Positions 1 through 13,381 of a stretch of DNA of 64,000 bases are shown piece by piece. Within the stretch, counting starts at the first letter, position 1, and every line of letters begins with the position of its first letter. This DNA comes from Ktedonobacteraceae bacterium (GTDB taxonomy: Bacteria; Chloroflexota; Ktedonobacteria; Ktedonobacterales; Ktedonobacteraceae). The notes beneath the pieces are model-generated. The model was not told where the DNA came from, searched no databases, and saw only the letters and a program-made list of their open reading frames with translations. The position numbers were made by a program, and so were the translations under genes. The stretch spans positions 1 through 64,000 of the forward strand of contig DASRBN010000039.1 of NCBI GenBank assembly GCA_035653615.1. The letters run 5' to 3'.

Positions 1-1164
1 GGGGAAGCTGTACTGGGTGTGATCGACATAATGGGGTTTGGCATAGGGCGAGATGATGATCAGCGGCGCCCGGAAAGCATATTCGATCTTCGCGTTGGGA
101 CCCTTTGGAGGAACGACATGATCGTAGAAGCCGCCGAAGTCATCCCACGTCAGGAAGATAGCGGTGCTGTTCCATACGGCTTTATTTTGCATAACGGCAT
201 TGATCTGCGAGACGGTAAAGTTTTCACCTATGCAGATACTAACGGGTGGATGATCGCTTACATTTCCGGGCTGCACCAGCCAGCTGACGGTAGGCAATGT
301 TCCGGCTGCGGCATCCTTTACGAACTGCTTATAATCGGAGAAATGCTGTTTCCATTGTTGTGTCTCGCGGATATCCTGAATAGCATCATAGGCATTCCAC
401 TCGAATCCATCGGTATTTACTGCGGGCGAGTAGGTTTTCCAGGAGAGGTTCTGGGCGCTGAGCAGGTCTCCCAGTGTTTGGAAATCGCTGAAGCAAGGAA
501 AGACATGCGTTACTTTGCCATCTGGAGCTCGCTCCTCAACGGTAGTGCCTTGCGAATCGTCGCACCCCCATTTGTTGATATCTCCCACGCCGTAAGGATT
601 ATCATCAACATTATCATTGCTAGCTGCTATGGAGAAGAGATGGTTCGGGAAACTCGGTCCCTGGATCGGATAAAAGAAGTGGTCGGGCAAGGCGAAGGTC
701 TGAGCATACTGCCAATAGTTGGGGATATCCGATTGGTAGAATTGCGAATCGGCCACATCCATTTTCTTCCCATTGATATTCTGAATTGCTCCGAGAATTT
801 TGGAGAAGCCATCCATCTTACCGTGATCATAGGCCGTCAGATAGGAAGCATGTTCATGATCGATATCGAATACAAGTTGATCGGGTTGATGATTTAAGGG
901 ATGGATTTTGCCTTTGGGATCTTTGTAGGTTGTCGCCCCATCAGCTCCTTGGAAAGTACCGAACATACTGTCGAAGGTGCGATTCTCCTTGACTATGATC
1001 ACAATATGTTTGATAGGATTGGATGCCAGAGGAGCGGCATCTGCGTTATGAGGAGTTGCCTGTGGGACAATACCTATCAATAGAAGCAGGATGGTGAAAA
1101 GGCTCCCGAGATAAGCCTTTCTTGATATCCTGAACCGTTCTGAAAGTGAGAACTGCTGGTTCAT
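1..1164 (-). CDS. Secreted phosphoesterase (acid phosphatase/phospholipase C family), 3' end cut by the window edge
   Basis: Exported hydrolase of the phosphoesterase family that includes AcpA-type acid phosphatases and bacterial phospholipases C. Translated on the minus strand, 388 residues run to position 1 without a stop; paralogues here are about 450 residues, so roughly 60 C-terminal residues lie outside. An N-terminal hydrophobic signal is followed by the metal-site motif ENRTFDSMFG, then DHGKMDGFS, PNHLFSIA, a DHPP stretch and WDDFGGFYDHV, which carries the Asp/His residues typical of the family. I chose the ATG at 1164 because GGAGAG lies about 7 nt upstream; an in-frame ATG at 1179 lacks a good site. 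It is the last visible gene of cluster 1, 48 nt after the preceding paralogue. The substrate (phosphate monoester or phospholipid) cannot be told from sequence. Confidence 0.88.
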   Translation of the reverse strand, partial: MNQQFSLSERFRISRKAYLGSLFTILLLLIGIVPQATPHNADAAPLASNPIKHIVIIVKENRTFDSMFGTFQGADGATTYKDPKGKIHPLNHQPDQLVFDIDHEHASYLTAYDHGKMDGFSKILGAIQNINGKKMDVADSQFYQSDIPNYWQYAQTFALPDHFFYPIQGPSFPNHLFSIAASNDNVDDNPYGVGDINKWGCDDSQGTTVEERAPDGKVTHVFPCFSDFQTLGDLLSAQNLSWKTYSPAVNTDGFEWNAYDAIQDIRETQQWKQHFSDYKQFVKDAAAGTLPTVSWLVQPGNVSDHPPVSICIGENFTVSQINAVMQNKAVWNSTAIFLTWDDFGGFYDHVVPPKGPNAKIEYAFRAPLIIISPYAKPHYVDHTQYSFP

Positions 1165-1212
1165 GCTCTGTCTCTCCATTTCAATAAATTCTCTCATGCT
1201 TTCTATGCTGTG

Positions 1213-2562
1213 CTATGACCAATCTATGTTCGATGGGCCGCTTTGCGTATATGAGGGACAGGTACGTTGTTGCAGGATCAATGGCGGCAAGGGCTGCTGT
1301 TTGAAGTTGAACGAGTTGAACATATCGCTGGCACCCTGATCAAGTCCTCCCAGAGATGGCAAACCCAGAATCTTCTCCGCGAATTTGAGCATCGAGGGGA
1401 AGCTATAGAACGTGTTGTCGACATAATGGGGTTTGGCATAGGGCGAGATGATGATCAGCGGAGCGCGAAAGCCATATTCAATCTTCTGATTGGGGCCGTT
1501 GGAGGGCTTGACGTGATCGTAGAAGCCGCCGAAGTCGTCCCAGGTCAGGAAGATGGCCGTGCTGTTCCATAACGATTGATTCTGCATGATGGCATTGATC
1601 TGCTGCACCGTCCAGTTCTCACCTGCGCAGACGCTCTCAGGTGGATGGTCGCTTACGCCGCTTGGCTGAACCAGCCAGCTCACTGTCGGAAGGTTGCCGG
1701 AGGCTGCATCTTTGACAAAATTCGTATAATCGGAGAAGTGCTGTTTCCATTGATTCGTATTGCGGATGCCTTGAATGGCATCGTAGGCATTCCATTCGTA
1801 CCCATCCTTATTGAAGCTGGGCGAGTAAGATTTCCAGGAGATATTTTGCGCGCTCAAGAGGTCGCCCAGGGTCTGAAACGTAAAGCATGGGAAGACGTTC
1901 TCTACCTTGCCATTTGAGTGTCGCTCTTCAACGGTTGTTCCTTTTGGATCGTCGCAGCCCCAGGTATTGATGTATTTCAGGTTAGAAATTTGGGGATTCT
2001 CATCGACATCATTATCGGTGGCGGCAATGGAGAAGAGATGGTTGGGGAAACTCTCCGAGCGTATCGTGTAGAAGAACTCATCGGGCAGAGCGAAGGTTTG
2101 TGCGTATTGCCAGTAATTGGGGATATCTGCCTGGTAGAACTGCGAATCGGCCACATCCATCTTCTTGCCGTTGATAATCTGAATTGCTCCGGCAATTTTG
2201 GAAAAGCCATCCATTTTTCCATGGTCGTAGGCCGTGAGAAACGCCGGATAATTATGAGCCAGGTCAAAGGTCAGATGATCAGGCTGGTGATTCAGAGGAT
2301 GTATCTTCCCTTTCTTATCCTTATAGGTCGTAGCCCCGTCGGCGCCTGGAAAGGTGCCGAACATGCTATCAAAACTGCGATTCTCCTTCACCATAATCAC
2401 GATGTGCTTAATAGGATTGGATGCCTGAGGAGCTGCTTTTGCCGCAGAAGCTGCTACCAGGGGTCGCATACCCACAAGCACAAGCAGAATTACAAAAGCG
2501 TTCCAGAGATAGACTTGTTTTGATGCCAGGTATCCCTTGAATCGAGAAACTTGTGGATTCAT
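1213..2562 (-). CDS. Secreted phosphoesterase (acid phosphatase/phospholipase C family)
   Basis: 449-residue member of the phosphoesterase family, very close in sequence to the neighbouring copies. A basic N-terminus and a hydrophobic segment at about residues 15-35 end near an Ala-rich cleavage-like site, so it should be exported. Family motifs appear in order: KENRSFDSMFG, DHGKMDGFSK, FPNHLFSIA, VSDHPPESVCAGENW, LTWDDFGGFYDHV and SPYAKPHY. Start at 2562 (MNPQV) is supported by GGAGAG about 6 nt upstream; a longer in-frame start 15 nt earlier overlaps that site. The gene is 42 nt downstream of the next paralogue with no terminator visible between them, so the three cluster-1 copies are probably co-transcribed. 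Likely role is phosphate scavenging from organic phosphates or phospholipids outside the cell; this is family inference. Confidence 0.9.
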   Translation of the reverse strand: MNPQVSRFKGYLASKQVYLWNAFVILLVLVGMRPLVAASAAKAAPQASNPIKHIVIMVKENRSFDSMFGTFPGADGATTYKDKKGKIHPLNHQPDHLTFDLAHNYPAFLTAYDHGKMDGFSKIAGAIQIINGKKMDVADSQFYQADIPNYWQYAQTFALPDEFFYTIRSESFPNHLFSIAATDNDVDENPQISNLKYINTWGCDDPKGTTVEERHSNGKVENVFPCFTFQTLGDLLSAQNISWKSYSPSFNKDGYEWNAYDAIQGIRNTNQWKQHFSDYTNFVKDAASGNLPTVSWLVQPSGVSDHPPESVCAGENWTVQQINAIMQNQSLWNSTAIFLTWDDFGGFYDHVKPSNGPNQKIEYGFRAPLIIISPYAKPHYVDNTFYSFPSMLKFAEKILGLPSLGGLDQGASDMFNSFNFKQQPLPPLILQQRTCPSYTQSGPSNIDWS

Positions 2563-2604
2563 TGTTTGTCTCTCCAATTCTCTCTTTGGACATGTTTTAC
2601 GTGT

Positions 2605-3978
2605 TCATGACCAATCACTTACCTGTGGAGTTGCGCCAGATAATAATTTGGGGCAAGTGCGAGTTTGCAAGATAAGCGGTGGCAAAGGATTCTGGGAGAA
2701 ATCAAAAGCATTGATCAAATTGTTGACTTGCTTATCCAATCCCCCCAGAGAGGGTAAGCCCAGAACTGTTTCCGCGAACTTCAGCATGGAAGGGAAAGTA
2801 TACTGGGTGTTATCGATGTAGTGCGGCTTCGCATAAGGAGAGATTACGATCAAGGGCGCGCGAAAGCCGTACTCAAGATATTTGTTTGGACCAACCGGTG
2901 GCACAACATGATCATAGAAGCCACCAAAGTCATCCCAGGTCAGGAAGATTGCAGTACTGTTCCACAACGACTTGTTACTCATGATGGCGTTGATCTGCTG
3001 TACCGTCCAGTTCTCACCAGCACAGACGCTTGTCCCTGGATGATCGCTTACATTCTCAGGTTGAACTAACCAGCTGACTGTAGGCAAGGAGCCTGATGCG
3101 GCATCCTTTACAAATTGATCGTAATTAGCAAAATGAATATTCCATTGTGATGTCTCACGAATATCCTTAATTGCGTCATATGCATTCCATTGATAGCCAT
3201 TTTGCTTTTGTGGAGGTGAGTAAGTCTTCCAGGAAATATTTTGGGCCGTCAGGAGATCACCCAGTGATTTAAAAGTAAAACATGGAAAGACATTTGATTT
3301 TTTGCCATTTGAGTGAATCTCTAATGCCGTTGTCTTCTTTGGAGCATCACATCCCCATGTATAGGGACTGATTCCCTGACCATGGAAGTTAGGAATTCCT
3401 GAAACATCATCATCGGTTCCGGCAATAGAGAAAAGATGGTTGGGGAAGCTATCCGATTGGATGGTATAAAAAAATTCATCCGGCAAAGCAAATGTTTGCG
3501 CATATTGCCAATAGTTGGGAATATCTGTTTGGTAGAACTGCGAATCGGCTTCATCAGTTTGTTTCCCGTGGACATTTTGAATAGCCCCAGGGATTTTCGA
3601 GAAGCCATCCATTTTGCCATGGTCATAGCCAAGGAGGAAGGAGTAATGGTCGTGACCTATATCCAAAATAAGTTGATCAGGTTGATGGTTCAGGGGATGG
3701 ATTTTGCCGTGAGGATCCTTGTAAGTAGTAGCGCCGTCAGCGCCAGGAAAGGTGCCGAACATACTATCGAAGGTACGGTTCTCTTTGACCATAAAGACAA
3801 TGTGTTTGATGGGATAAGTTGTTTTGGGAGCAGCATCAGCTATAGTTCGCGGGATCAAGATTGGACTAAAGCTAAGTACAAACGACAGAATTGTGATAGC
3901 GAATCCGACCCGCACAATTTTTGAGGTTCTCAGCCTGTCCCAAAGGAAATCATAATGATACTTCAGTTGCCGGTTCAT
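2605..3978 (-). CDS. Secreted phosphoesterase (acid phosphatase/phospholipase C family)
   Basis: 457-residue paralogue and the first phosphoesterase of cluster 1. The N-terminus (MNRQLKYHYDFLW) is basic and is followed by a hydrophobic span at about 20-45 (VGFAITILSFVLSF), consistent with a Sec-type signal or membrane anchor. Motifs KENRTFDSMFG, DHGKMDGFSK, FPNHLFSIAG and WDDFGGFYDHV are intact. The middle (GIPNFHGQGISPYTWGC) diverges most from the other copies. I set the start at 3978 behind a GAAAGG site; a longer open frame to 4041 runs into the upstream hairpin and carries no export signal. It follows a Cys-rich Tat protein gene by 89 nt containing a perfect palindrome, which may set a separate expression level for the enzymes. 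Confidence 0.9.
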   Translation of the reverse strand: MNRQLKYHYDFLWDRLRTSKIVRVGFAITILSFVLSFSPILIPRTIADAAPKTTYPIKHIVFMVKENRTFDSMFGTFPGADGATTYKDPHGKIHPLNHQPDQLILDIGHDHYSFLLGYDHGKMDGFSKIPGAIQNVHGKQTDEADSQFYQTDIPNYWQYAQTFALPDEFFYTIQSDSFPNHLFSIAGTDDDVSGIPNFHGQGISPYTWGCDAPKKTTALEIHSNGKKSNVFPCFTFKSLGDLLTAQNISWKTYSPPQKQNGYQWNAYDAIKDIRETSQWNIHFANYDQFVKDAASGSLPTVSWLVQPENVSDHPGTSVCAGENWTVQQINAIMSNKSLWNSTAIFLTWDDFGGFYDHVVPPVGPNKYLEYGFRAPLIVISPYAKPHYIDNTQYTFPSMLKFAETVLGLPSLGGLDKQVNNLINAFDFSQNPLPPLILQTRTCPKLLSGATPQVSDWS

Positions 3979-4026
3979 ACTGCAACCTTTCCCCAAATAG
4001 AAGTTTCTGAGGCAAAAACAAGGTGA

Positions 4027-4050
4027 CCTGGCATTTTGCAAAATGCCAGG
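4027..4050 (-). terminator. Perfect 12+12 palindrome between Cys-rich gene and phosphoesterase
   Basis: A 24-nt perfect inverted repeat (arm CCTGGCATTTTG) lies 18 nt after the stop of the Cys-rich gene and about 50 nt before the phosphoesterase start. Read on the minus strand it is followed by TCACCTTGTTTTTGCC, so a modest T-run lies downstream. It could be a partial terminator, an RNA-processing hairpin or an operator; the sequence does not decide. Confidence 0.5.
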
Positions 4051-4067
4051 CGCGACCTACACATAAA

Positions 4068-4472
4068 TTACTTGCATGTTTTTCCGCATTTCGGGAGGCA
4101 TACGTTCTTATGCGGGCAACAGGTTTTCATTGCGCAAAAAGAGCCACTGGGACAATCGGAGTCCGATTTACACGTCTTCTCTTTGTTGTTGCAGATATTG
4201 ACGATGCAGCCGCAGGTACCCGAACCTTTGCTGTTCAGAAAGCAGAAACAGTTTTTATTGTGTCCACAAGGGGAGAAAGTGCCGCCGCAGGTTGCAGGAT
4301 TGTGACAGGCGCCTGATTTTGCAGCGGAAGTGGACTTTGCCAGTGCCTGTCCAGGTATCCAGGAGGCCAGCGCCACTCCTGCCAGCGAACCGGCAACACG
4401 CCCCAACGCCTGGCGCCGGGAAAGTTTATCATCTGCCATTGTCCTGGTAATCTCATCGAACCAGTTAGCCAT
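4068..4472 (-). CDS. Tat-signal, 16-cysteine small secreted protein (copy A)
   Basis: 134-residue protein of no family I can name. The N-terminus begins MANWFDEITRT, then a twin-arginine motif LSRRQALGR at about residues 18-26, a hydrophobic stretch (VAGSLAGVALASW) and an AxA-like end near AKS. This predicts export through the Tat system after folding. The mature part of about 85 residues contains 16 cysteines in pairs such as CFC, CGC, DCPSGSFC and TCC, spaced like those of the two other copies in the window; the even number suggests eight disulfides or bound metal. Start at 4472 has AAGGAG with a 6-nt spacer; the TTG two codons earlier is too close to that site. The gene directly follows a MauE-thioredoxin fusion, a plausible disulfide-forming partner. 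It lacks the GSGHG C-terminal tail of the other copies. Confidence 0.85.
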   Translation of the reverse strand: MANWFDEITRTMADDKLSRRQALGRVAGSLAGVALASWIPGQALAKSTSAAKSGACHNPATCGGTFSPCGHNKNCFCFLNSKGSGTCGCIVNICNNKEKTCKSDSDCPSGSFCAMKTCCPHKNVCLPKCGKTCK

Positions 4473-4507
4473 TGTCAACTCCTTATCGATCTAAAGCAGA
4501 ACGAAAG

Positions 4508-4539
4508 CCACTACCTGAATTTGCCATTACAGGTAGTGG
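4508..4539 (-). terminator. Hairpin between MauE-thioredoxin gene and Cys-rich gene A
   Basis: 10-bp perfect stem (arm CCACTACCTG) with a 12-nt loop, located 20 nt after the stop of the MauE-thioredoxin gene and ahead of the next gene's ribosome binding site. The minus-strand read is followed by CTTTCGTT, a poor T-run, so attenuation or mRNA end protection is as likely as full termination. Confidence 0.45.
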
Positions 4540-4558
4540 TTTTCGTTACTGATTACTT

Positions 4559-6079
4559 CTATACTGTTGCCGGTTTGGGATTCCCTTTGGCGTATTTACG
4601 GGCGGTGCTGTTTGCCAGCTCGAAGATTTCTTCGGCACCGGTTGCCGGTTTAGTCATGAGCGTGCCATTTTCGTCGATGAGTACTGCCATTGGAGTGCCC
4701 GATGCTCCAAAGAGAGGAGCGATTGCGAAATCGTCGTCGATCACAACGGTAGATCGCAATCCTTGCTTCCTATTCTCAGTAGGAGTGCCGTTTGAAACGA
4801 TGAGCAGTTTTGGCGCACCCTTTGGCGGTCTCGCTTCCCATGCTTTCAACCGTGGCAGCATCTCCTGGCAATAGCCGCAGCTGGTACTCCAGAAGATCAT
4901 GAGCGTGGGACTACCCAGGAGGTCGGAAAGCTGGACCATATTTCCGTTCAGGTCCGGTAGCGTTACATTGGGAGCCGGTAAATCAACTGCTGCATATATA
5001 GTTTCGTTCGGCTGGCCCAGGACGTTCAGGGTCGGTAGATTTTTTGGCCTTTCTTCGAGGATGTTCCTGGTCTCGGACATGATCAGGTCACGAATCTCAT
5101 CCTCTCCAATGGCTACGGAACTATGTATCGAGCCATCACTACGAATTATTACCGCGGAGGGAGTAGCATTTACCAGGTAAGCGTCAGCGACCTCGCGGTT
5201 TTCCTGCAGCAGTACAGGAGCGACACCGTATTCGGCAGTCTTGGCACGATTATGTTCGGGACTGCCCTGGCTGATGACTGCGAACGTCATTCTATCGCTG
5301 TAATCGCGTATCCATTGGCCAAGTTCCGGCATCATCGCCTCGCAAGGACCGCAGGTGGGGCTTGTAAATACAAGCATAACCCCTTCTCCGCGGCTAAGCA
5401 GCGATTGGAGCGTAACAATCTCGCCGTTCAGGTCGGGAAGTGCAAAATCTGGGGCATCCTCTCCCTCAGGTAGGCCTACCCAATCAGGGGTATCAGACAC
5501 GGTCTTTCCTGATTCCACTGCCTCTAAGCGCATGGTCAATTTGCCAATCTGGCGCAGCATTTCCATCAGGAGCCAGCTTTCGGCGGCAAGCAGCGCAAGT
5601 ACGATGATGCCAAAAATCAATCCTATGCCTTCAGCGGGATTCAGTTTTCCGATCCAGGCCACCATGCTGAGTTCCTGGGTAGTCAGTCCAAACCCTACGA
5701 TGAGGGCCGCGATCACTGCCAGGACGAGGTTGCGGATAAGCGTACTCCTGCCTATAGCTGAGGAATAGAACACACCAAAACAGTGGCAGTCCGGTTTGCG
5801 CCCAAGCGTCAGATTGTAGGTTATCCCGGCAACAAAGAGCAGCAGCAAAACCAGTGCTCCCAGTGCTCCCCACCAGGCTGAAGCAGTAGGAATGAGGGCT
5901 ACTGTCACAGCGATTTCAGCAAACGGTAGAATAGTTCCGAGCGGGGCGGCAAGGAAATCTGGCAAGCTAAAATCCCGCATAGCCTGTCGCGACCCTTTGA
6001 GGTCGAGAAGTTTACCAACTCCGGCCACGAGGAACACTACAGCGAGTACCAGGCGTGCTAGAAGGAGCACAATACTCAT
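4559..6079 (-). CDS. MauE/DoxX-like membrane protein fused to two thioredoxin-like (TlpA/redoxin) domains
   Basis: 506-residue fusion likely to move disulfides or reducing equivalents across the membrane. Residues 1-170 form a four- to five-helix MauE/DoxX-like membrane domain with the paired cysteines PDCHCFG (Cys98, Cys100). A further membrane segment lies near 150-172. Two thioredoxin-fold domains follow: one at about 205-345 with CGPC at 243-246, one at about 365-495 with CGYC at 401-404. In methylamine dehydrogenase clusters, MauE and the thioredoxin-like MauD act together to mature a Tat-exported, disulfide-rich subunit; here both activities sit in one chain with a second thioredoxin added. 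Flanking genes on both sides encode 16-Cys Tat proteins, so these are the likely clients (inference). The start ATG at 6079 begins the first helix directly. Confidence 0.88.
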   Translation of the reverse strand: MSIVLLLARLVLAVVFLVAGVGKLLDLKGSRQAMRDFSLPDFLAAPLGTILPFAEIAVTVALIPTASAWWGALGALVLLLLFVAGITYNLTLGRKPDCHCFGVFYSSAIGRSTLIRNLVLAVIAALIVGFGLTTQELSMVAWIGKLNPAEGIGLIFGIIVLALLAAESWLLMEMLRQIGKLTMRLEAVESGKTVSDTPDWVGLPEGEDAPDFALPDLNGEIVTLQSLLSRGEGVMLVFTSPTCGPCEAMMPELGQWIRDYSDRMTFAVISQGSPEHNRAKTAEYGVAPVLLQENREVADAYLVNATPSAVIIRSDGSIHSSVAIGEDEIRDLIMSETRNILEERPKNLPTLNVLGQPNETIYAAVDLPAPNVTLPDLNGNMVQLSDLLGSPTLMIFWSTSCGYCQEMLPRLKAWEARPPKGAPKLLIVSNGTPTENRKQGLRSTVVIDDDFAIAPLFGASGTPMAVLIDENGTLMTKPATGAEEIFELANSTARKYAKGNPKPATV

Positions 6080-6233
6080 AACAAAACCTCCAGATTATGG
6101 CGATGAACTTCCCAGAAGCTAACCAACTAGATAGCAACAAATCGACGGGATGCACAAACGGACCCGTCAAATACAACCAGGGGAGATTATTCGACTTACC
6201 AGACAAGCTAAATATGGTTCTTACAAGCTATGC

Positions 6234-6262
6234 GGGGGTGCCATCCGGCACCCCCGCACCAA
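6234..6262 (-). terminator. GC-rich hairpin between Cys-rich gene B and MauE-thioredoxin gene
   Basis: Inverted repeat with an 11-bp GC-rich stem (arm GCGGGGGTGCC, 4-nt loop) about 30 nt after the Cys-rich gene B stop. No T-run follows on the minus strand. The same place in cluster 2 has a comparable GC-rich hairpin, so the position is conserved though the sequence is not. It probably lowers read-through or protects the short upstream mRNA, giving more Cys-rich protein than membrane protein. Confidence 0.5.
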
Positions 6263-6295
6263 GAACGTTAGCGGTTCTCGTGCTAGAACATAGAA

Positions 6296-6742
6296 CTAGC
6301 GAGCTGCAGTTGAGCCATGCCCGCTGCCAAGCTGGCAGTTCTTGTTCTTTTTCTTACAAGCCGGTACACAGACGCCCTGGGAGCTGGAGCAGTTACAGCC
6401 CGTCGATACGATACAAACGCTGCCCTTGGGACACTTCTGCGAGCTGGAGCAGGTTGGTACCTGCGAGCAGTAGGAATTACATCCACAAACAGCTTTGCCA
6501 CCCAACTCGGTGAAGCAGTAGCAGTTGGTGTTGGGGTTGCCCTGACAGTTGGTGAAGCGGGACGGGTTGCTGCAGGTGCCACCGCCTCCGGCGCAGGAGT
6601 TCTTCTTGGCCAGAGCCAGACCGGGGAGCGCAGAAGCGGCTGCTACACCGGCGACGGTGCCGCCAACGCGGCGGAGGGCTGTACGGCGGCTGATTTTGTC
6701 ATCGGCCAGGGTTTTGGTTACAGTTTCGAACCAGTTTGCCAT
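6296..6742 (-). CDS. Tat-signal, 16-cysteine small secreted protein (copy B), first gene of cluster 1
   Basis: 148-residue protein related to copies A and C. MANWFETVTKT leads into a twin-arginine motif ISRRTALRR and a hydrophobic Ala/Gly-rich stretch ending near LALAKK. The mature part has 16 cysteines (for example NTNCYCF, VCGCNSYC, KCPKGSVC, GCNC), then a basic run KKKNKNC and a tail ending GSGHGSTAAR that resembles the tail of copy C. Start at 6742 is fixed by AAGGAG six nt upstream; the ATG two codons earlier abuts that site. It is preceded by a leader of about 620 nt and a near-consensus promoter, so it should be the best-expressed gene of the cluster. Function is unknown; a structural, metal-binding or electron-carrying role are all possible. 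Confidence 0.85.
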   Translation of the reverse strand: MANWFETVTKTLADDKISRRTALRRVGGTVAGVAAASALPGLALAKKNSCAGGGGTCSNPSRFTNCQGNPNTNCYCFTELGGKAVCGCNSYCSQVPTCSSSQKCPKGSVCIVSTGCNCSSSQGVCVPACKKKNKNCQLGSGHGSTAAR

Positions 6743-7363
6743 CGTCATCTCCTTATGGATTGGATTGTGTTGGAGGCATACGTGCTGTCCTTCAGCACCT
6801 TGTCCCGCAATGTACGGAACTTGCCTCATCAATACAAAAACAACAGATCACTCGTGACCCCTAGAAACAGGAACTTGTAACAGGCAGATGAAGAGAATTG
6901 TCTCTCTTCCATATGAAAGGAATAAGGCAGCATCCCTGCCATTCAGAAATAGCTTCGTCTGCTACCAGTTTTCCCTCAGTAACCTTAAGCTCCTTGAATA
7001 TTAGAGGGCATGGGTCGCACTACAGGGACGACAGAACACAAACGAATAGAACTCAGGACTGCCCGCACAAAATAAGCTCATCCGTATGAAATGATACGAA
7101 TCGCATTGACCAGATTCCCTGGAAAAGTATCGGGCAATTTTCGTTCCACCTTTATACAAACAGCCCATAGAATGGCTGTTGTATACAAATGGTATGATTC
7201 ACAGAGATTCGTGTGTAACACCAGACAATCGTATTTGGGAACCCCAGGCACCAGATGAATGACGTTCCGTTCCCCCCAAACGTACGTATCAGCACGAACC
7301 AACTGTTTACCAGCCGCGTGACAAGCAACGCACTGAATTTTTCAGGTCATCAGTTTCTTCTAT
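6743..7363 (-). ncRNA. Long conserved 5' leader of cluster 1 (putative structured RNA)
   Basis: About 620 nt lie between the predicted transcription start near 7363 and the first start codon at 6742, with no convincing gene. Several blocks match the leader of cluster 2 in the same order: ACGTTCCGT with its G-rich neighbour (7262-7275), a hairpin at 7153-7185 with a 12-bp stem, and a block around 7001-7050 containing GGGCATGGGTCGCACTACA. Block conservation without a coding frame suggests an RNA element or binding sites for a regulator. I do not recognise it as a known riboswitch class. Confidence 0.5.
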
Positions 7364-7369
7364 TGAGAA

Positions 7370-7399
7370 ATTGTAGCATGTACAAGTGATTTTTGTCAA
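7370..7399 (-). promoter_or_regulatory. Sigma70-type promoter of cluster 1
   Basis: Minus-strand TTGACA at 7394-7399, an 18-bp spacer and TACAAT at 7370-7375. Both boxes are close to consensus and the position is matched in cluster 2 (TTGACA, 18 bp, TACACT). Transcription should start near 7363 and run into the conserved leader. Confidence 0.75.
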
Positions 7400-7688
7400 G
7401 CCTTTACAGGGTCTTAATATCAGTGAATCGCCATATGAAAGTACAATTGAGTCAGATTTCTTGTACCATCTGTATCAAATTGTTTCAAATCGTGTTATAC
7501 AAGTTTTCTCTTAATGCCATACAAATCCTCATGAGAAGCCATATCAAATTTGAGCCTGGAAATAAGCCTGGTTTGCATTAGCAGACGAGCAAGAGAGCGT
7601 ACGTAATCTTACCTAATTGCTTTTCTGGACCAGGGCACGCATACTGAGTTTGATGTCCAAAAGAGCTTTTCTTTCTAAGTAAGGATGC
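7400..7688. other. Spacer between clusters 1 and 2
   Basis: This stretch holds the 3' side of cluster 2 and the region upstream of the cluster-1 promoter. It is AT-rich near 7420-7560 with no coding frame I believe. No clear intrinsic terminator is visible after the phosphoesterase stop at 7689, so cluster 2 transcripts may continue into cluster 1 or end by another route. Confidence 0.4.
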
Positions 7689-9044
7689 CTAAGCTGGATC
7701 GTAAAAGGCGTCCGTAGGCGGATTGAAAGACGATTTCGGACACGTTCTTTGCTGCAGCACAAGTGGCGGCAATGGTTGCTGTTGAAAATTGAAGACATGT
7801 ATCAGGTTGTTGGCGTTCATATCCAGCCCACCTAATGAGGGAAGGTCCAGTATTGACTCGGTAAATTTCAGTATCGATGGGAAGGAGTAGAAGGTGTGGT
7901 CAATATAGTGTGGCTTCGTATATGGCGAAATGACCAGCAGCGGAGCGCGAAGGCCATATTCGATCTTGGGGTTAGGTCCTTTCGAGGGCTTGATGTGATC
8001 ATAGAAGCCGCCAAAATCATCCCAGGTCAGGAAGATGGCTGTACTATTCCATAACGCTGTATTCTGCATCACCGCGTTGATCTGTTGCACCGTCCAGTTT
8101 TCTCCAGCGCAAATGCTCTCAGGTGGATGATCGCTTACATTGCCCGGCTGCACCAACCAGCTTACTGTTGGCAGCGTTCCAGCCGCGGCATCCTTGACGA
8201 ACTGCGTGTAGTCGGCGGTATGCAACTTCCATTGAGATGTCTCGCGAATATCCTGAATCGCGTCGTATGTGTTCCATTCATAGCCATTCTGGTCCTGGCC
8301 GGGGGAGTAGACCTTCCAGGAGAGTCCATGAGCGTTCAGGAGGTCGCCAAGCGTCTGAAACGTAAAACATGGGAAGGCATAGGTGACTTTACCGTTGGGG
8401 TGGCGCTCTTCAACGGTGGTGCCTTTCGGATCATCGCATCCCCATCTGTCTATGTATTTGCCGAGACCCTGGGGGTTTAGATCCACATCATCGTTTGTGG
8501 CAGCGATGGAGAAGAGATGATTCGGGAAACTATCGGCGTCAACCGTGTAGAAAAAGTGATCGGGAAGAGCAAAAGTTTGAGCGTATTGCCAGTAATTGGG
8601 AATGTCCGACTGGTAGAACTGGGAGTCCGAAACATCGATAGACTTTCCCCCAATCTGCTGTACCGCGCCCGGAATCTTTGAGAAGCCATCCATTTTGCCG
8701 TGATCGTATCCAATCAGAAAGGCCAGGCGGCTGTGGGCAATATCGAAAGCAAGAGTATCGGGTTGATGATTTAAAGGGTGTATCTTGCCTTTCGGGTCCT
8801 TGTACGTCGTGGCTCCATCGGCGCCGGGGAAGGTGCCAAACATACTATCGAAGGTGCGGTTCTCTTTGACCATAATCACGATATGCTTGATTGGATAAGA
8901 AGCAGCGTGTGCTATCTCTGTCGATTGTGGACTCAACGGAGCATAAAAGATCAGGAGCAGCAGGAAGAGCGCGAAGAGACAGCCGGGGCAAATATAGCGG
9001 GTGAAGTAACTTGTTGATCGGCAATGCCGGTGTTTTCCACTCAT
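7689..9044 (-). CDS. Secreted phosphoesterase (acid phosphatase/phospholipase C family)
   Basis: 451-residue phosphoesterase, last gene of cluster 2. A long n-region (MSGKHRHCRSTSYFTRY) precedes a strong hydrophobic core at about 20-35 (CLFALFLLLLIFY) and an Ala-rich exit, as in a Sec signal. Motifs KENRTFDSMFG, DHGKMDGFSK, FPNHLFSIA, DHPPESICAGENW and WDDFGGFYDHI are complete. Start at 9044 has GGAGAG about 7 nt upstream. It follows its neighbour paralogue by 75 nt with no obvious terminator between, suggesting one mRNA. It is closest by eye to the copies with a KPSxGPNxKIEYG segment, pointing to duplication within the locus. The enzyme probably releases phosphate outside the cell. Confidence 0.9.
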   Translation of the reverse strand: MSGKHRHCRSTSYFTRYICPGCLFALFLLLLIFYAPLSPQSTEIAHAASYPIKHIVIMVKENRTFDSMFGTFPGADGATTYKDPKGKIHPLNHQPDTLAFDIAHSRLAFLIGYDHGKMDGFSKIPGAVQQIGGKSIDVSDSQFYQSDIPNYWQYAQTFALPDHFFYTVDADSFPNHLFSIAATNDDVDLNPQGLGKYIDRWGCDDPKGTTVEERHPNGKVTYAFPCFTFQTLGDLLNAHGLSWKVYSPGQDQNGYEWNTYDAIQDIRETSQWKLHTADYTQFVKDAAAGTLPTVSWLVQPGNVSDHPPESICAGENWTVQQINAVMQNTALWNSTAIFLTWDDFGGFYDHIKPSKGPNPKIEYGLRAPLLVISPYTKPHYIDHTFYSFPSILKFTESILDLPSLGGLDMNANNLIHVFNFQQQPLPPLVLQQRTCPKSSFNPPTDAFYDPA

Positions 9045-9119
9045 ACTCTGCTCTCCATGGCATAAGATATATCTGGGCGAGCTCCGCCCAGATGTTAACA
9101 GGTGTTAAAAAGAACAGAA

Positions 9120-10469
9120 TCACGATATATCGGTAATTGGATTCATCGGCCTGCCTGCCGGTGGAGGCGGACACTTGCGCTGCTTTAAGACGAGCGGCGG
9201 TAAAGCCTGCTGGCTAAAGTTGAATACATTGATCAGGTTATGGGCCTGCTTATCCATCTCACCAAGAGAAGGCAGGTCCAAAACTGTTTCCACGAACTTG
9301 AGCATCGACGCAAAATTGTACTGGGTAGAGTCAATGTAGTGGGGCCTGGCATAGGGAGAGATGACAATGAGGGGAGCGCGGAATCCAAACTCAATTTGAG
9401 GGTTAGGACCAACGGGTGGCACTACATGATCATAGAGTCCGCCAAAATCATCCCAGGTGAGGAAGATAGCGGTTGTATTCCACAGCGTTTTGTTTTGCAT
9501 AATAGCATTGATCTGTTGCACCGTCCAGTTCTCGCCGGCGCACATGCTCTCCCCCGGGTGGTCGCTCACACTGGTGGGCTGCACGAGCCAGCTTACGGTA
9601 GGTAAGGTTCCGGCTGTGGCATCCTTGACGAACTGGCTGTAATCGGCATTATGCTGTTTCCACTGGTTACTATCGCGGATATCTTGAATCGAGTCGAAGG
9701 CATCCCATTCGTATCCAGTCTGGTTGAAGCCGGGCGCGTAGGATTTCCAGGAAATGCCTCGCGCTGTTAAGAGATCTCCAAGCGTAGGAAAGGTGAAGCA
9801 GGGAAATACATGTGATACTTTGCCGTTGGAATGAAGCTCTTCTACTGTCGTACCTTTGCTTGAATCACATCCCCAGTTATTGACATATTTCCCTTTCAAT
9901 ATGGGATTGGCATCAACGTCATCGTCGGTTGCGGCGATTGAGAAGAGGTGGCCGGGGAAGCTGGGTCCCTGAATGGTGTAGAAGAAGTGGTCAGGCAGCG
10001 CAAAGGTCTGCGCGTATTGCCAGTAATTGGGAATATCCGATTGGTAGAATTGAGCATCGGCAACGTCGAGTTTAAGCACTCCGTAAATCTCAATTGCACC
10101 TGGGAGGAGGGAGAAGCCATCCATCTTGCCATGGTCGTAAGCGGTAAGAAATGCCGCGTGGTCATGGGCGACATCGAAAAACAGCATATCAGGTTCATGA
10201 TTGAGGGGATGAACCTTGCCATTTGGGTCTTTATAGGTTGTGGCTCCATCGGCTCCAGGGAAGGTGCCAAACAGATTGTCGAAGGTGTGGTTCTCTTTGA
10301 CCATAATCACGATATGCTGAATAGGATACGAATGGGAAGTAACGGCTGCCACTACCTGAGGCTTTGGTACCCGGTCAAAGCAAACCAGCAACAGCAGAAG
10401 TCCAAGAGTACCGGCAATACGAATGATGGTGGCTATAGTCAAACGTTGCCAGGCTGAGAACTGCTTCAT
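9120..10469 (-). CDS. Secreted phosphoesterase (acid phosphatase/phospholipase C family)
   Basis: 449-residue phosphoesterase, first enzyme gene of cluster 2. The N-terminus MKQFSAWQRLTIATIIR is followed by a hydrophobic core (IAGTLGLLLLLVCF), a typical export signal. It carries KENHTFDNLFG, so the usual Arg after Asn is His and Ser is Asn in this first motif, and WDDFGGLYDHV instead of GGFYDHV. These are the most divergent active-site surroundings of the five copies and may mean a shifted substrate range. Start at 10469 is preferred because the longer open frame upstream (to 10523) has no export signal and no better ribosome site. The gene is separated from the MauE-thioredoxin gene by about 255 nt that include a perfect GC-rich hairpin. 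Confidence 0.88.
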   Translation of the reverse strand: MKQFSAWQRLTIATIIRIAGTLGLLLLLVCFDRVPKPQVVAAVTSHSYPIQHIVIMVKENHTFDNLFGTFPGADGATTYKDPNGKVHPLNHEPDMLFFDVAHDHAAFLTAYDHGKMDGFSLLPGAIEIYGVLKLDVADAQFYQSDIPNYWQYAQTFALPDHFFYTIQGPSFPGHLFSIAATDDDVDANPILKGKYVNNWGCDSSKGTTVEELHSNGKVSHVFPCFTFPTLGDLLTARGISWKSYAPGFNQTGYEWDAFDSIQDIRDSNQWKQHNADYSQFVKDATAGTLPTVSWLVQPTSVSDHPGESMCAGENWTVQQINAIMQNKTLWNTTAIFLTWDDFGGLYDHVVPPVGPNPQIEFGFRAPLIVISPYARPHYIDSTQYNFASMLKFVETVLDLPSLGEMDKQAHNLINVFNFSQQALPPLVLKQRKCPPPPAGRPMNPITDIS

Positions 10470-10615
10470 ACTACACCTTCGATCTAGTGACACTCCGCTC
10501 AGGCTAAAGCCCTTTACTGTCAATGACGTTTGACAGGTATTCTATCAGCAAGCGGGAGCCAATGGGGCGGAGGGGCCAGATTATGCTCTTTGACCAAATA
10601 TTTCGGCCATCCAAC

Positions 10616-10635
10616 GGGGCCGATCAATCGGCCCC
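10616..10635 (-). terminator. Perfect GC-rich hairpin upstream of phosphoesterase
   Basis: GGGGCCGAT, two loop bases, ATCGGCCCC: a 9-bp perfect stem about 90 nt after the MauE-thioredoxin stop and about 150 nt before the next start codon. No T-run follows on the minus strand. It may be an RNA-processing or attenuation hairpin. The 255-nt spacer around it holds no gene I can support. Confidence 0.45.
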
Positions 10636-10724
10636 TACGGCACAGCTGTGGGGCTTGATTGACCGCATTTTTGCCGGGTTATTTTGTCAAAGGTCCATAA
10701 TCTAGCCTCGCATTGATTAGCCTG

Positions 10725-12245
10725 CTAGACTGCTGCCGGTTTAGGTTTAGCCTTGCTACGAATGGGTTTTTTAGCCAGGGCCAGAACCTCGTTTGCTCCA
10801 ACGGCCGGTTCGGAGATAACATAACCATTTTCATCAAGCAGTACTGCGATTGGAGTGCCATTTACCCCAAACATGCGCTGTGCGTAATGGCTATCATCAA
10901 GCATGATTGGAGCGCGGATACCCTGCGCCCTGTTTTCTTTTGGATTGCCACTGGAAATGACCAGCAACTGTGGCGCATCCTTTGGTGGCTTTGCTTCCCA
11001 GGCTTTCAGATCCCGCAACATGGCCTGACAGTAGCCGCAGCTTGTACTCCAGAAGAGAACCAGGGTCGGCTTCCCCAGGAAATCACCCAGATTGATCAGG
11101 TTTCCATCAAGGTCCGGCATGGTGATATCGGGAGCAAGTTCGCCAACTTTCGGAGGCTCAGGTGCGGAGGTATTGGGTATAGTAGGATGCAATATGGGCA
11201 ACTGTCCAGGTCTGGATGGGAGGATGACGGTCGCCTCTTCAACAAGTTCACGAATCTCGTCTTCACCCTCGGCAAGAGGACTGCTAATCCCTCCATCCGC
11301 TTTAACAATGACTCCTGTGGGGGTGCCTCGTATCAGGTAAGCCTGGGCCACCTCGGCGTCCTTCTGCAAAAGCACGGGATGAATGTCGTAATTTCCAATC
11401 TTGGCACGGTTGTCCTCGGCACTACCCTGGCTGATGACCGCAAAAGTGAGCCGGTCTGTGTGTTTACTTTGCCACTCCGCGAGATCTGGCAGCATAGCAG
11501 AGCAGGGCCCGCAAGTTGGAGAGATGAATACGAGCAGGACCGGTTTACCACGAGCGCAGAGGCTTTCAAGCGAGACAAGGTTCCCATCCAGGTCGGGGAG
11601 TTCAAATGTTGGAGCATCAGAGTCCACCTCTAATCCTGGTTTCTCGCTTGACATTTCAGGAACCTGCTCCAGACGTGTCTCTAACGCGTCTAGCCGTCCC
11701 AGTATGCGTCCAATCGAGCGCACTGCCTCAACGAGTACCCAACCCTCTGCCAGCAGCAAGATAGCGAAGATGATCGCAACCACCAGCTCGATGTCTTGCG
11801 CAATAGACAGAGCACCAATCCATGCTACCATGCCTGGTCCGGCATCCACTCGTCCGAGCGCAATAACGATACCGGCTACGACAGCAAGAATCACATTGCG
11901 GATCAGTGTCGCGCTGCTAATAGTAGAGGAGTAGAATACGCCAAAGCAGTGACAATCTGGCCTGCGACCGGAAGTGAGATTATAGCCGATGCCTGCGACA
12001 AACAGTAGTAGCAAGATTGCCGCGCCAATAGCTCCCCACCAGGCCGAGGCTGAAACTACAAGCGCTACTGCTACAGCAAGCTCCGCAAATGGCAGCAGGA
12101 CTCCGAGTGGGGCCGCGAGAAGATTGGGCAAACCGAAGTCTCGCATGGCCTGCTGCGAACCTTTGAGATCGAAGAGCTTGCCAACACCAGCCACGATGAA
12201 CACCACAACAAGCACCAGACGTGCCAGCAGGAGTAGGACACTCAT
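10725..12245 (-). CDS. MauE/DoxX-like membrane protein fused to two thioredoxin-like domains (cluster 2 copy)
   Basis: Same architecture and same length (506 residues) as the cluster 1 copy: MauE/DoxX-like helices with PDCHCFG at 96-102, then two redoxin domains with PTCGPC and TSCGYC. The N-terminus MSVLLLLARLVLVVVFIVAG goes straight into the first helix. Start at 12245 has GGGAGG upstream; a longer frame to 12332 would add a non-membrane stretch overlapping the upstream hairpin. Retention of all three cysteine pairs in both copies argues that each is needed. Predicted role is thiol-disulfide exchange for the adjacent Tat-exported Cys-rich protein, by analogy with MauD/MauE. Whether the chain oxidises or isomerises disulfides cannot be seen from sequence. 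Confidence 0.88.
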   Translation of the reverse strand: MSVLLLLARLVLVVVFIVAGVGKLFDLKGSQQAMRDFGLPNLLAAPLGVLLPFAELAVAVALVVSASAWWGAIGAAILLLLFVAGIGYNLTSGRRPDCHCFGVFYSSTISSATLIRNVILAVVAGIVIALGRVDAGPGMVAWIGALSIAQDIELVVAIIFAILLLAEGWVLVEAVRSIGRILGRLDALETRLEQVPEMSSEKPGLEVDSDAPTFELPDLDGNLVSLESLCARGKPVLLVFISPTCGPCSAMLPDLAEWQSKHTDRLTFAVISQGSAEDNRAKIGNYDIHPVLLQKDAEVAQAYLIRGTPTGVIVKADGGISSPLAEGEDEIRELVEEATVILPSRPGQLPILHPTIPNTSAPEPPKVGELAPDITMPDLDGNLINLGDFLGKPTLVLFWSTSCGYCQAMLRDLKAWEAKPPKDAPQLLVISSGNPKENRAQGIRAPIMLDDSHYAQRMFGVNGTPIAVLLDENGYVISEPAVGANEVLALAKKPIRSKAKPKPAAV

Positions 12246-12302
12246 AATACGAAGCCTCCCAACTGAAATAATGAAAAAAACTTGAAGTGATAACTGTAGA
12301 AG

Positions 12303-12332
12303 GTGCAGGGGCGATATAGCACGCCCCCACAC
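12303..12332 (-). terminator. GC-rich hairpin between Cys-rich gene C and MauE-thioredoxin gene
   Basis: Imperfect inverted repeat (GTGTGGGGGCG pairing with CGCCCCTGCAC, one mismatch, loop about 8 nt) about 40 nt after the Cys-rich gene stop. It occupies the same place as the cluster 1 hairpin at 6234-6262. No T-run follows. Likely controls relative expression inside the operon. Confidence 0.45.
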
Positions 12333-12370
12333 CCAAGAACTTAGCTCAGTGAGCTACATTCCGTGGGGAA

Positions 12371-12808
12371 TTAGCGATGAGCGCTGGTCGTGCCATGGCC
12401 GCTACCGAGCTGGCAGTTCTTGTTCTTGCCCTTACACTTCACGGTGCATACGTTGGGTGAAGGTGAGGCGCAGCAGGTGTTGATTGCGCAGAAGCTCCCC
12501 TTTGGGCAATCATGGTTGGAGCTACAGGCCTGCAACTGCGAACAGAACTGGGAGCATCCGCAGAACGCTTTGTTACTGGCGTTGGTAAAGCAGAAGCAGT
12601 TGGTGTTGGAGTTGTTGGCACAGTTCACATATGTGCCGCATACACCACCACCTCCGGGACAGGCCTTGCTTTTGGCCAGGGCTATGCCGGGAATGCCCGC
12701 GGCCACCGCTATGCCAGCTACACCGGCAGTAATGCGGCGGATCGCAGTACGGCGCCCGATCTTCTCATCTGCCACAGTCCTTGACAGATCTTCAAACCAG
12801 TTTGCCAT
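12371..12808 (-). CDS. Tat-signal, 16-cysteine small secreted protein (copy C), first gene of cluster 2
   Basis: 145-residue member of the same family as copies A and B. MANWFEDLSRT is followed by a twin-arginine motif IGRRTAIRR, a hydrophobic stretch (GVAGIAVAAGIPG) and a cleavage-like ALAKS. The mature part has 16 cysteines with the shared spacing: NTNCFCF, FCGCSQFC, DCPKGSFC, TCC and KNKNC, and a tail GSGHGTTSAHR. Start at 12808 follows AAGGAG by 6 nt; two earlier ATG codons are too near that site. It heads cluster 2 behind a leader of about 540 nt. The pattern of many short-spaced Cys pairs resembles secreted disulfide-stabilised mini-domains, but I recognise no named family. Confidence 0.85.
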   Translation of the reverse strand: MANWFEDLSRTVADEKIGRRTAIRRITAGVAGIAVAAGIPGIALAKSKACPGGGGVCGTYVNCANNSNTNCFCFTNASNKAFCGCSQFCSQLQACSSNHDCPKGSFCAINTCCASPSPNVCTVKCKGKNKNCQLGSGHGTTSAHR

Positions 12809-13345
12809 CATCATCTCCTTTTTGACGCAAGACCAGAATGCCTCGCGTCTGATGTTCCGCCTATGGCGGAAATCAACTCAACAATACAAATGGGACAATG
12901 ATCAACTGGTGGCCTCTATTCACAGGAACAGATAGCAGGCTCTTACTCCAGGTAGATATAGAGGTATGCTTCGCAGCTTATCTGCTTGTAGACAGTAGCA
13001 GCTCTGTTACCTCTAACCTCCAAACGAGCCTTAGCTCCTGGTATACTAGAGGACATGGGCCACACTACAAGGATTATCAAACGCAAACGAGTAGAATTTA
13101 CAAACCGCTCGCAAAGTAACTCTGGTTACACGGGAGAGTGCAAACCAAGCTGGTAAACCAGTTGATTAGGGAATCAGGAGCGCGTTTGTTTTCTACTGTT
13201 TATACAAACAAGCCATAAACATAGCTGTTGTACGAGCAACGGGTGAAATTAATAAATTTTGATGGGAATTCGCCAGCATCTGATGAATTAACGTTCCGTC
13301 CCTCCCTGACGTACGCTTCATTGTCGTATTTCAACGTGCCTTCAT
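12809..13345 (-). ncRNA. Long conserved 5' leader of cluster 2 (putative structured RNA)
   Basis: About 540 nt between the predicted transcription start near 13345 and the Cys-rich gene. Blocks shared with the cluster 1 leader keep their order: ACGTTCCGT plus G-rich flank (13291-13305), a partly kept hairpin (13201-13232, TATACAAACAAGCC with GCTGTTGTA), and a block around 13030-13100 including GACATGGGCCACACTACA. Sequence between the blocks has diverged, which points to selection on the blocks. Confidence 0.5.
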
Positions 13346-13351
13346 TGAAAA

Positions 13352-13381
13352 AGTGTAGCACATACTCTTCTTTTTTGTCAA
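13352..13381 (-). promoter_or_regulatory. Sigma70-type promoter of cluster 2
   Basis: Minus-strand TTGACA at 13376-13381, an 18-bp spacer and TACACT at 13352-13357. The arrangement equals that of the cluster 1 promoter. Upstream sequence is A/T-rich, as in an UP element. Confidence 0.72.

Follow-up and report, generated by a model that had tools for sequence, protein, structure and literature searches.

Our analysis of 64,000 nucleotides (the window) at the start of contig DASRBN010000039.1 (C39), part of a Ktedonobacter-group genome of 6.6 Mb whose class relatives include Ktedonobacter racemifer and Dictyobacter vulcani, found two gene clusters in which a cysteine-rich protein with a twin-arginine translocation (Tat) signal adjoins a membrane protein that fuses MauE to thioredoxin domains resembling MauD. 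The pairing of these genes is strong, and it is found in soil bacteria of several phyla. MauE and MauD are required for the disulfide-rich protein MauA (van der Palen et al. 1997, as cited in PMC7794033); by homology the fusion would have a disulfide role, and it is probably a dedicated disulfide maker for the Tat-signal proteins, which we call its clients. Our full proposal, a quinone-linked pair of client and maturase in which the disulfides are made at the cytoplasmic side before Tat export, has in our judgement an even chance of being correct.

A scan of 84,980 species genomes of GTDB for relatives of the fusion gave 74 loci, some of them fragments, under the labels Chloroflexota, Thermomicrobiales, Acidobacteria, Actinobacteria, Eremiobacterota, Deltaproteobacteria, Nitrospira and others. 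When a Tat-Cys-rich gene was defined automatically (a twin arginine, RR, then a hydrophobic stretch, then at least 6 Cys and at least 6% Cys), 24 such genes lay within 2 kb of the fusion match and nine farther away, which corresponds to 0.99 versus 0.15 per 10 kb, a 6.7-fold difference; the sequence within 2 kb, which holds 24 of the 33, makes up 28% of the total (binomial p=1.6e-7). The nearby genes are mostly on the same strand as the fusion, often with a gap of <300 bp. At least four of the nine distant genes look like genuine Cys-rich Tat proteins, and therefore dispersed clients exist too. In a tree of 48 fusion rows, 17 stand-alone rows form one Thermomicrobiales-type clade; outside it, 22 of 31 rows, spread across the tree, have a Tat-Cys-rich neighbour (two of the 22, L046 and L085, were added by hand, the automatic filter having missed them). 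Neighbour presence requires seven label changes on this tree, and none of 500 shuffles required as few. The expectation of the original prediction, that Cys-rich proteins and MauE-thioredoxin proteins would pair independently of methylamine dehydrogenase, is thus borne out in many genomes and several phyla. Within the genome of the window all three fusions adjoin a 16-Cys Tat-signal protein, and nine of ten strong MauE loci have a Cys-rich neighbour; in K. racemifer, three Cys-rich Tat genes, the fusion, TatA and TatC are consecutive. A plasmid search with the window MauE gave two weak Streptomyces matches only, and a mau cluster was read from a Paracoccus denitrificans plasmid (L248).

The partners measure from 41 to about 840 residues after the signal, contain 6-84 Cys and do not form one family, a range so wide that the constant must be Cys-richness and a Tat leader, not a fold. 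A single conserved Cys-rich family as the client was rejected: relatives found with a profile of the 16-Cys proteins are few, and most partners scanned lack a Pfam match. In a Pfam scan of nine partners, seven gave no match, one a weak Tat-signal match and one a Stig1-like match; Pfam matches at L088 and L016 belong to other genes and were not counted. What many partners do have in common is a leader motif upstream of RR, [F/L/V/I/W][D/E]x[L/V/M/A/I/F]x[R/K/E/T/S/Q]x[L/I/M/F/V/A][A/S/G/V/N/T], or FDxLxRxLA...RR in short. Of 33 Cys-rich Tat proteins 18 carry it, all four MauA among them, as against none of 52 other Tat-like N-termini, many of which are not proven Tat substrates. The leader sequence of Paracoccus MauA is MLGNFRFDDMVEKLSRRVAGQTSRRSVIG and its counterpart in the window is MANWFETVTKTLADDKISRRTALRR.

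Two modules in the window

All genes of the two modules, A and B, are on the (-) strand. Module A consists of a promoter, a 16-Cys Tat-signal protein, a MauE-double-thioredoxin fusion and two phosphoesterases of family PF04185, and module B of a promoter, a 16-Cys protein, a fusion, a second 16-Cys protein and three PF04185 genes:

13352..13381, (-): promoter A, TTGACA-18-TACACT, with TG before the -10
12809..13351, (-): long 5' leader A, with no Rfam family
12371..12808, (-): Tat-signal protein of module A, 16 Cys in the mature part, with no Pfam or NCBIfam family
10725..12245, (-): MauE-MauD-MauD' fusion of module A, 506 residues, five predicted transmembrane segments, CGPC in the first thioredoxin domain and CGYC in the second
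11946..11954, (-): CxC (PDCHCFG) in the MauE domain of the module A fusion, residues 98-100
9120..10469, (-): PF04185 phosphoesterase of module A, incidental, without RR signal
7689..9044, (-): PF04185 phosphoesterase of module A, incidental
7370..7399, (-): promoter B, TTGACA-18-TACAAT, with TG before the -10
6743..7369, (-): long 5' leader B
6296..6742, (-): first Tat-signal protein of module B, 16 Cys in the mature part
4559..6079, (-): MauE-MauD-MauD' fusion of module B, 506 residues
4068..4472, (-): second Tat-signal protein of module B, 16 Cys in the mature part
4026..4051, (-): hairpin with an 11-bp stem and a poor T tail, between the second Cys gene of module B and the phosphoesterase gene that follows it
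2605..3978, (-): PF04185 phosphoesterase of module B, incidental
1213..2562, (-): PF04185 phosphoesterase of module B, incidental
1..1197, (-): PF04185 phosphoesterase of module B, incidental, cut by the contig start

The original prediction had described two clusters with a common promoter and 5' leader, a 16-Cys Tat protein in each, fusions of equal length and no dehydrogenase genes, and on all these points it was accurate; the second 16-Cys protein of module B was not picked out in it. The two promoters are the top two sigma-70-type matches within 13.8 kb (11/12 and 10/12), and the 5' leaders are 71% identical over 545 nucleotides (alignment score +67, versus -80 with a standard deviation of 6.5 in shuffles); an Rfam search of the long leader found no element. 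No mau dehydrogenase gene was found in the window region, and profile searches of the genome for MauA (PF02975) and MauB (PF06433), both made without a positive control, gave no match. The description as a duplicated module suits the fusions, which are 56% identical to each other, and the Cys-rich proteins, with 46-56% mutual identity, but not the five phosphoesterases, which do not pair module by module. A third pair of Cys-rich protein (102332-102748) and fusion (102877-104415) is on the same contig (G000:C39:102332-104415), with a similar promoter and no phosphoesterase.

The mature part of each Cys-rich protein of the window contains exactly 16 Cys and the signal part none, and this even number is common to all four clients of the genome. 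The three proteins contain 15 or more Cys per 100 residues, a density that no other open reading frame segment in the 64 kb reaches; background Cys is 1.2%. Their signals are of the Tat type (FE/FD...RRxAL...ALA-K), and the SRRxAL motif, a hydrophobic h-region, the ALA-K site and a TatC gene on contig C37 of the genome mark them as predicted Tat substrates. The mature product may be a disulfide-rich peptide that is secreted, or a surface protein with a structural role. Elsewhere in this genome there is an orphan copy of the 16-Cys domain with no recognisable start or Tat signal, possibly decayed (L043:7732-8175, G000:C15), and a locus in which a MauE flanked by two anchored thioredoxins is followed by two Tat-signal proteins, with 16 and 18 Cys, that are related to each other and belong to another family (L020:6480-9285, G000:C33).

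In the fusions, the MauE domain (PF07291) spans residues 1-128 and scores 93.9 and 98.5 bits, the curated Pfam cut-off being 27 (E=1e-26). The helix and first thioredoxin domain that come after it match MauD (TIGR02661), and a second MauD-like domain then follows; the match (83.5 and 79.9 bits, E=1e-23), which is in two stretches, stays below the equivalog cut-off of 188.6 bits. Judged by these profiles, the fused thioredoxin domains are MauD-like and not MauD proper, and the chain is a MauE linked to two of them. Residues 160-320 align to residues 10-161 of MauD, with the fifth helix aligned to the MauD anchor and RQxG after the helix common to the fusion (LRQIGKL..RLE) and Paracoccus MauD (MRQVGLLHER). 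Across 52 aligned MauE domains the invariant residues are K23, F37, E55, G93, C98, C100, F101, G102 and R116, which include the CxC after the third helix (PDCHCFG in the window fusion, DCGCF in Paracoccus MauE). An AlphaFold model of the fusion (predicted local distance difference test score, pLDDT, 88) has a MauE bundle that fits the DoxX-type protein NACHO (Z 13.1, 115 residues, 2.2 Å; the next row has Z 8.2) and a first thioredoxin domain that fits ResA/DsbE (Z 19.2). Likeness of the MauE fold to VKOR was dropped as evidence, the match being weak (Z about 6). The first thioredoxin domain mostly has CGPC and later domains CGFC or CGYC, and the number of thioredoxin domains in relatives varies from two to four: four are joined to MauE at L076:9959-12478, and many Thermomicrobiales relatives, which stand alone, have three.

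The phosphoesterases, which the original prediction had included in the system, are incidental to it, because they are missing at the third locus, lie beside the fusion at only one of the 74 loci elsewhere, have 10 of their 15 genomic copies away from MauE and lack RR signals; as core members they were rejected. The five paralogues of the window, 66-74% identical and with only a handful of Cys, represent a local expansion. The clusters would be a single unit with them if, for example, they encoded a secreted phosphorus-scavenging system with the enzymes as disulfide clients. Such a unit could account for their position downstream in both modules and for the Eremiobacterota locus L088:8220-12926, where a 70-Cys Tat-signal protein, a MauE-double-thioredoxin fusion and a PF04185 phosphoesterase follow in the same order as in the window, which is one observation in the enzymes' favour. 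However, the same absences, the low Cys content and the hairpin at 4026..4051, which may separate transcripts, make this unit very improbable.

Membrane side and redox role

The charges that flank the membrane helices point to one orientation. In 87 of 88 MauE sequences (52 fused, 32 single and four from Paracoccus/Methylobacterium), the loops on the CxC side are richer in lysine and arginine (K+R) than those on the opposite side, with means of 5.8 versus 0.9 for fused, 7.0 versus 1.2 for single and 8.0 versus 0.5 for Paracoccus/Methylobacterium sequences. Among 25 anchored thioredoxin-like proteins near MauE (from 27, two S26 peptidases having been removed by hand), 23 have more K/R after the helix than before it; of the other two, one is a tie that depends on the choice of start and one is ResA-like. 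Four MauD from mau clusters have no K/R before the helix and some after it. The reverse pattern was found in all 29 ResA/DsbE-like proteins of the same class (means 5.0 before and 0.6 after the helix), and the Cys loop of VKOR proteins of the class lies on the K/R-poor side, as known, opposite to the pattern of the MauE CxC. TatA, which is an N-out/C-in protein, has at the K. racemifer locus the same charge pattern as the MauD anchors. By the positive-inside rule, the MauE CxC and the MauD-type thioredoxin domains are therefore predicted to face the cytoplasm.

The usual supposition for MauD and MauE is that they act after export, in the periplasm. The same pair of client and maturase could accordingly work with its thioredoxin domains facing outward and form the disulfides after Tat export: the evidence from pairing and homology would be identical, and proteins with the TlpA/ResA thioredoxin fold as a rule lie outside the cytoplasm. 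The charge bias of both sets, Paracoccus included, is nevertheless opposite to what this arrangement would need, the ResA-like and VKOR controls behave as expected, and it gives no reason for the use of Tat rather than Sec, so that we consider it rather unlikely.

Because of the charge bias, we prefer oxidation before export. The core unit would consist of a client, a Tat-signal protein with many Cys, and a maturase, MauE with two (elsewhere three or four) MauD-type domains. The helix bundle of MauE would pass electrons from the conserved CxC to a membrane quinone, the acceptor being suggested by analogy with DoxX and DsbB, and the attached MauD domains would hand disulfides to the Cys-rich client and reshuffle them there. 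Oxidation would take place on the inner side of the membrane, with the Tat signal and its leader FDxLxRxLA...RR still attached to the client, and the folded, oxidised client would then be exported via Tat. Tat is known to favour cargo that is already folded and to let disulfide proteins through only after their oxidation, and the cytoplasm is reducing; if the bonds are made before export, Cys-packed proteins could therefore use a folded-cargo route. The sequences themselves show the pairing and its spread, the domains, the Cys counts, the leader motif that MauA also has and the charge bias; the redox direction, the quinone acceptor, the identity of the client, the cytoplasmic location and the order of events we infer. 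The separate maturation system for Cys-rich clients of the original prediction is thus retained, on the strength of the pairing, the MauD-like domains and the leader motif that partners have in common with MauA, and refined by a predicted cytoplasmic action before Tat export. That the fusion is the cell's principal disulfide machinery was rejected: its occurrence is sporadic (10 of 400 genomes from the phylum), whereas VKOR occurs in 43 of 47 genomes of the class and covers general oxidation, which makes the fusion an accessory, dedicated device.

Several observations weigh against this proposal. Among close relatives the co-occurrence anticipated by the original prediction, clear across the GTDB loci, is mixed: only one of the four other genomes of the class with a full fusion, that of K. 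racemifer, has the pairing, and the 17 Thermomicrobiales-type rows stand alone without a Cys-rich partner. Class-wide, Tat-Cys-rich genes occur at 10 of 33 strong MauE loci versus 4 of 32 DoxX-like control loci (p=0.13); the comparison becomes significant (12/35 versus 2/30, one-sided p=0.007) only after a regrouping, made once the result was seen, in which two MauE above the Pfam cut-off were moved out of the controls. Cys-richness does not always accompany the signal, as L044:6838-7581 (G000:C27) is a Tat-signal protein with the leader of the 16-Cys proteins and a Cys-free mature part, and at L041 a Tat-signal protein that adjoins a MauE has few Cys. The sequences had been inspected before the leader motif was defined, redox direction and topology are predicted from sequence, the positive-inside rule yields a prediction, and acidic residues, too, are present in the loops on the CxC side. 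Finally, CGPC in the first thioredoxin domain is the motif of reducing thioredoxin, and a role as reductase or isomerase is possible. The fusion could then keep the Cys-rich protein reduced or reshuffled, for instance for metal loading of a metallothionein-like protein, and both its likeness to the ResA/DsbE reductants and its two to four thioredoxin domains, which would suit shuffling, are consistent with this. We find it quite improbable, since genetic work (cited in PMC7794033) links MauE and MauD to a subunit rich in disulfides and all four clients of this genome have 16 Cys, an even number.

Leader-type peptides and the meaning of the pairing

Eight MauE loci carry another kind of partner, leader-type peptides (12 aligned), with genes for an S26 peptidase and an ABC (ATP-binding cassette) exporter at several of them. 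The precursors, of 76-99 residues, have a conserved leader ending in APQA.A and then a Cys core, and lie beside MauE and an anchored thioredoxin, at L014:5655-5918 (C44) and L016:5312-5611 (C42) in the genome of the window and at L139, L142 (four copies), L143, L149, L151 and L155. From their sequences these appear to be clusters of Ktedonobacteria resembling those for bacteriocins or for ribosomally synthesized and post-translationally modified peptides (RiPPs). In Streptomyces, decRiPPter noted three candidate families in which mauE, in one of them together with mauD, adjoins precursors that have at least 8 Cys, and a modifying role was suggested (PMC7794033). The Cys-rich proteins of the window could likewise be precursors of secreted disulfide-rich peptides of bacteriocin or RiPP type, with the fusion as modification enzyme, an explanation compatible with either topology. 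That proposal and the sister clusters of the same genome and its relatives speak for it. The features by which decRiPPter-type clusters are recognised, a short leader/core precursor and a dedicated exporter or peptidase, are present at other loci of the genome and absent at the window clusters, where no exporter, peptidase or immunity gene was found, and partners elsewhere reach 600-840 residues with 65-84 Cys, too big for a peptide; as an account of the window we hold it unlikely.

A wider claim, that MauE and MauD, the Paracoccus prototype included, are cytoplasm-facing membrane disulfide makers for Cys-rich proteins with FDxLxRxLA...RR leaders before export by Tat (by ABC exporters in the sister clusters), is put forward tentatively, at slightly less than even chances. 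If true, the bacterial membrane would have a station for oxidative folding on its inner side, the opposite of the Dsb/VKOR paradigm, and the presumed periplasmic action of MauE and MauD would have to be revised. It would address the problem of how proteins with 16 to 84 Cys use Tat, given folded cargo and a reducing cytoplasm, and could provide a membrane-tethered tool for disulfide-rich proteins in the cytoplasm. The gene pair and the charge pattern make oxidation before export directly testable in a tractable host.

Comparison with known systems

The original prediction had known of no described system of this composition. This holds in part: decRiPPter had already placed mauE beside Cys-rich precursors in Streptomyces (PMC7794033), and our literature search, incomplete in coverage, found no description of MauE-MauD fusions with Tat clients or of the leader and topology arguments. 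The decRiPPter families resemble the present pairs in that mauE adjoins a small Cys-rich protein without other mau genes, from which a Mau-type modification was deduced; as far as the consulted part of that account goes, they differ from the fusions, the Tat clients of up to about 840 residues, the spread over several phyla and the topology described here (PMC7794033). What is new beyond decRiPPter is thus the MauE-MauD fusions, the Tat clients of any size, the several phyla and the leader and topology arguments.

With MauE/MauD and MauA of P. denitrificans, which together with the decRiPPter families are the closest precedents, the pairs have in common MauE and MauD domains with the same charge pattern, and a small Tat-signal client (12 Cys in MauA) with a leader of the FDxL...RR type. 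Unlike in Paracoccus, MauE and two MauD-like domains are here in one chain, and the client has 16 Cys, belongs to no recognisable family and varies between genomes. VKOR/DsbB with DsbA is alike in that a membrane helix-bundle redox protein supplies a thioredoxin-fold donor, but VKOR faces outward, is a housekeeping enzyme in this class and matches MauE weakly in fold. The predicted MauE domain fits the DoxX family member NACHO/TMEM35A in fold; this family has no fused thioredoxins and a different role. The thioredoxins ResA, TlpA, CcmG and DsbE resemble the fused domains in fold (Z up to 19), whereas their anchors in the same class have the opposite charge pattern.

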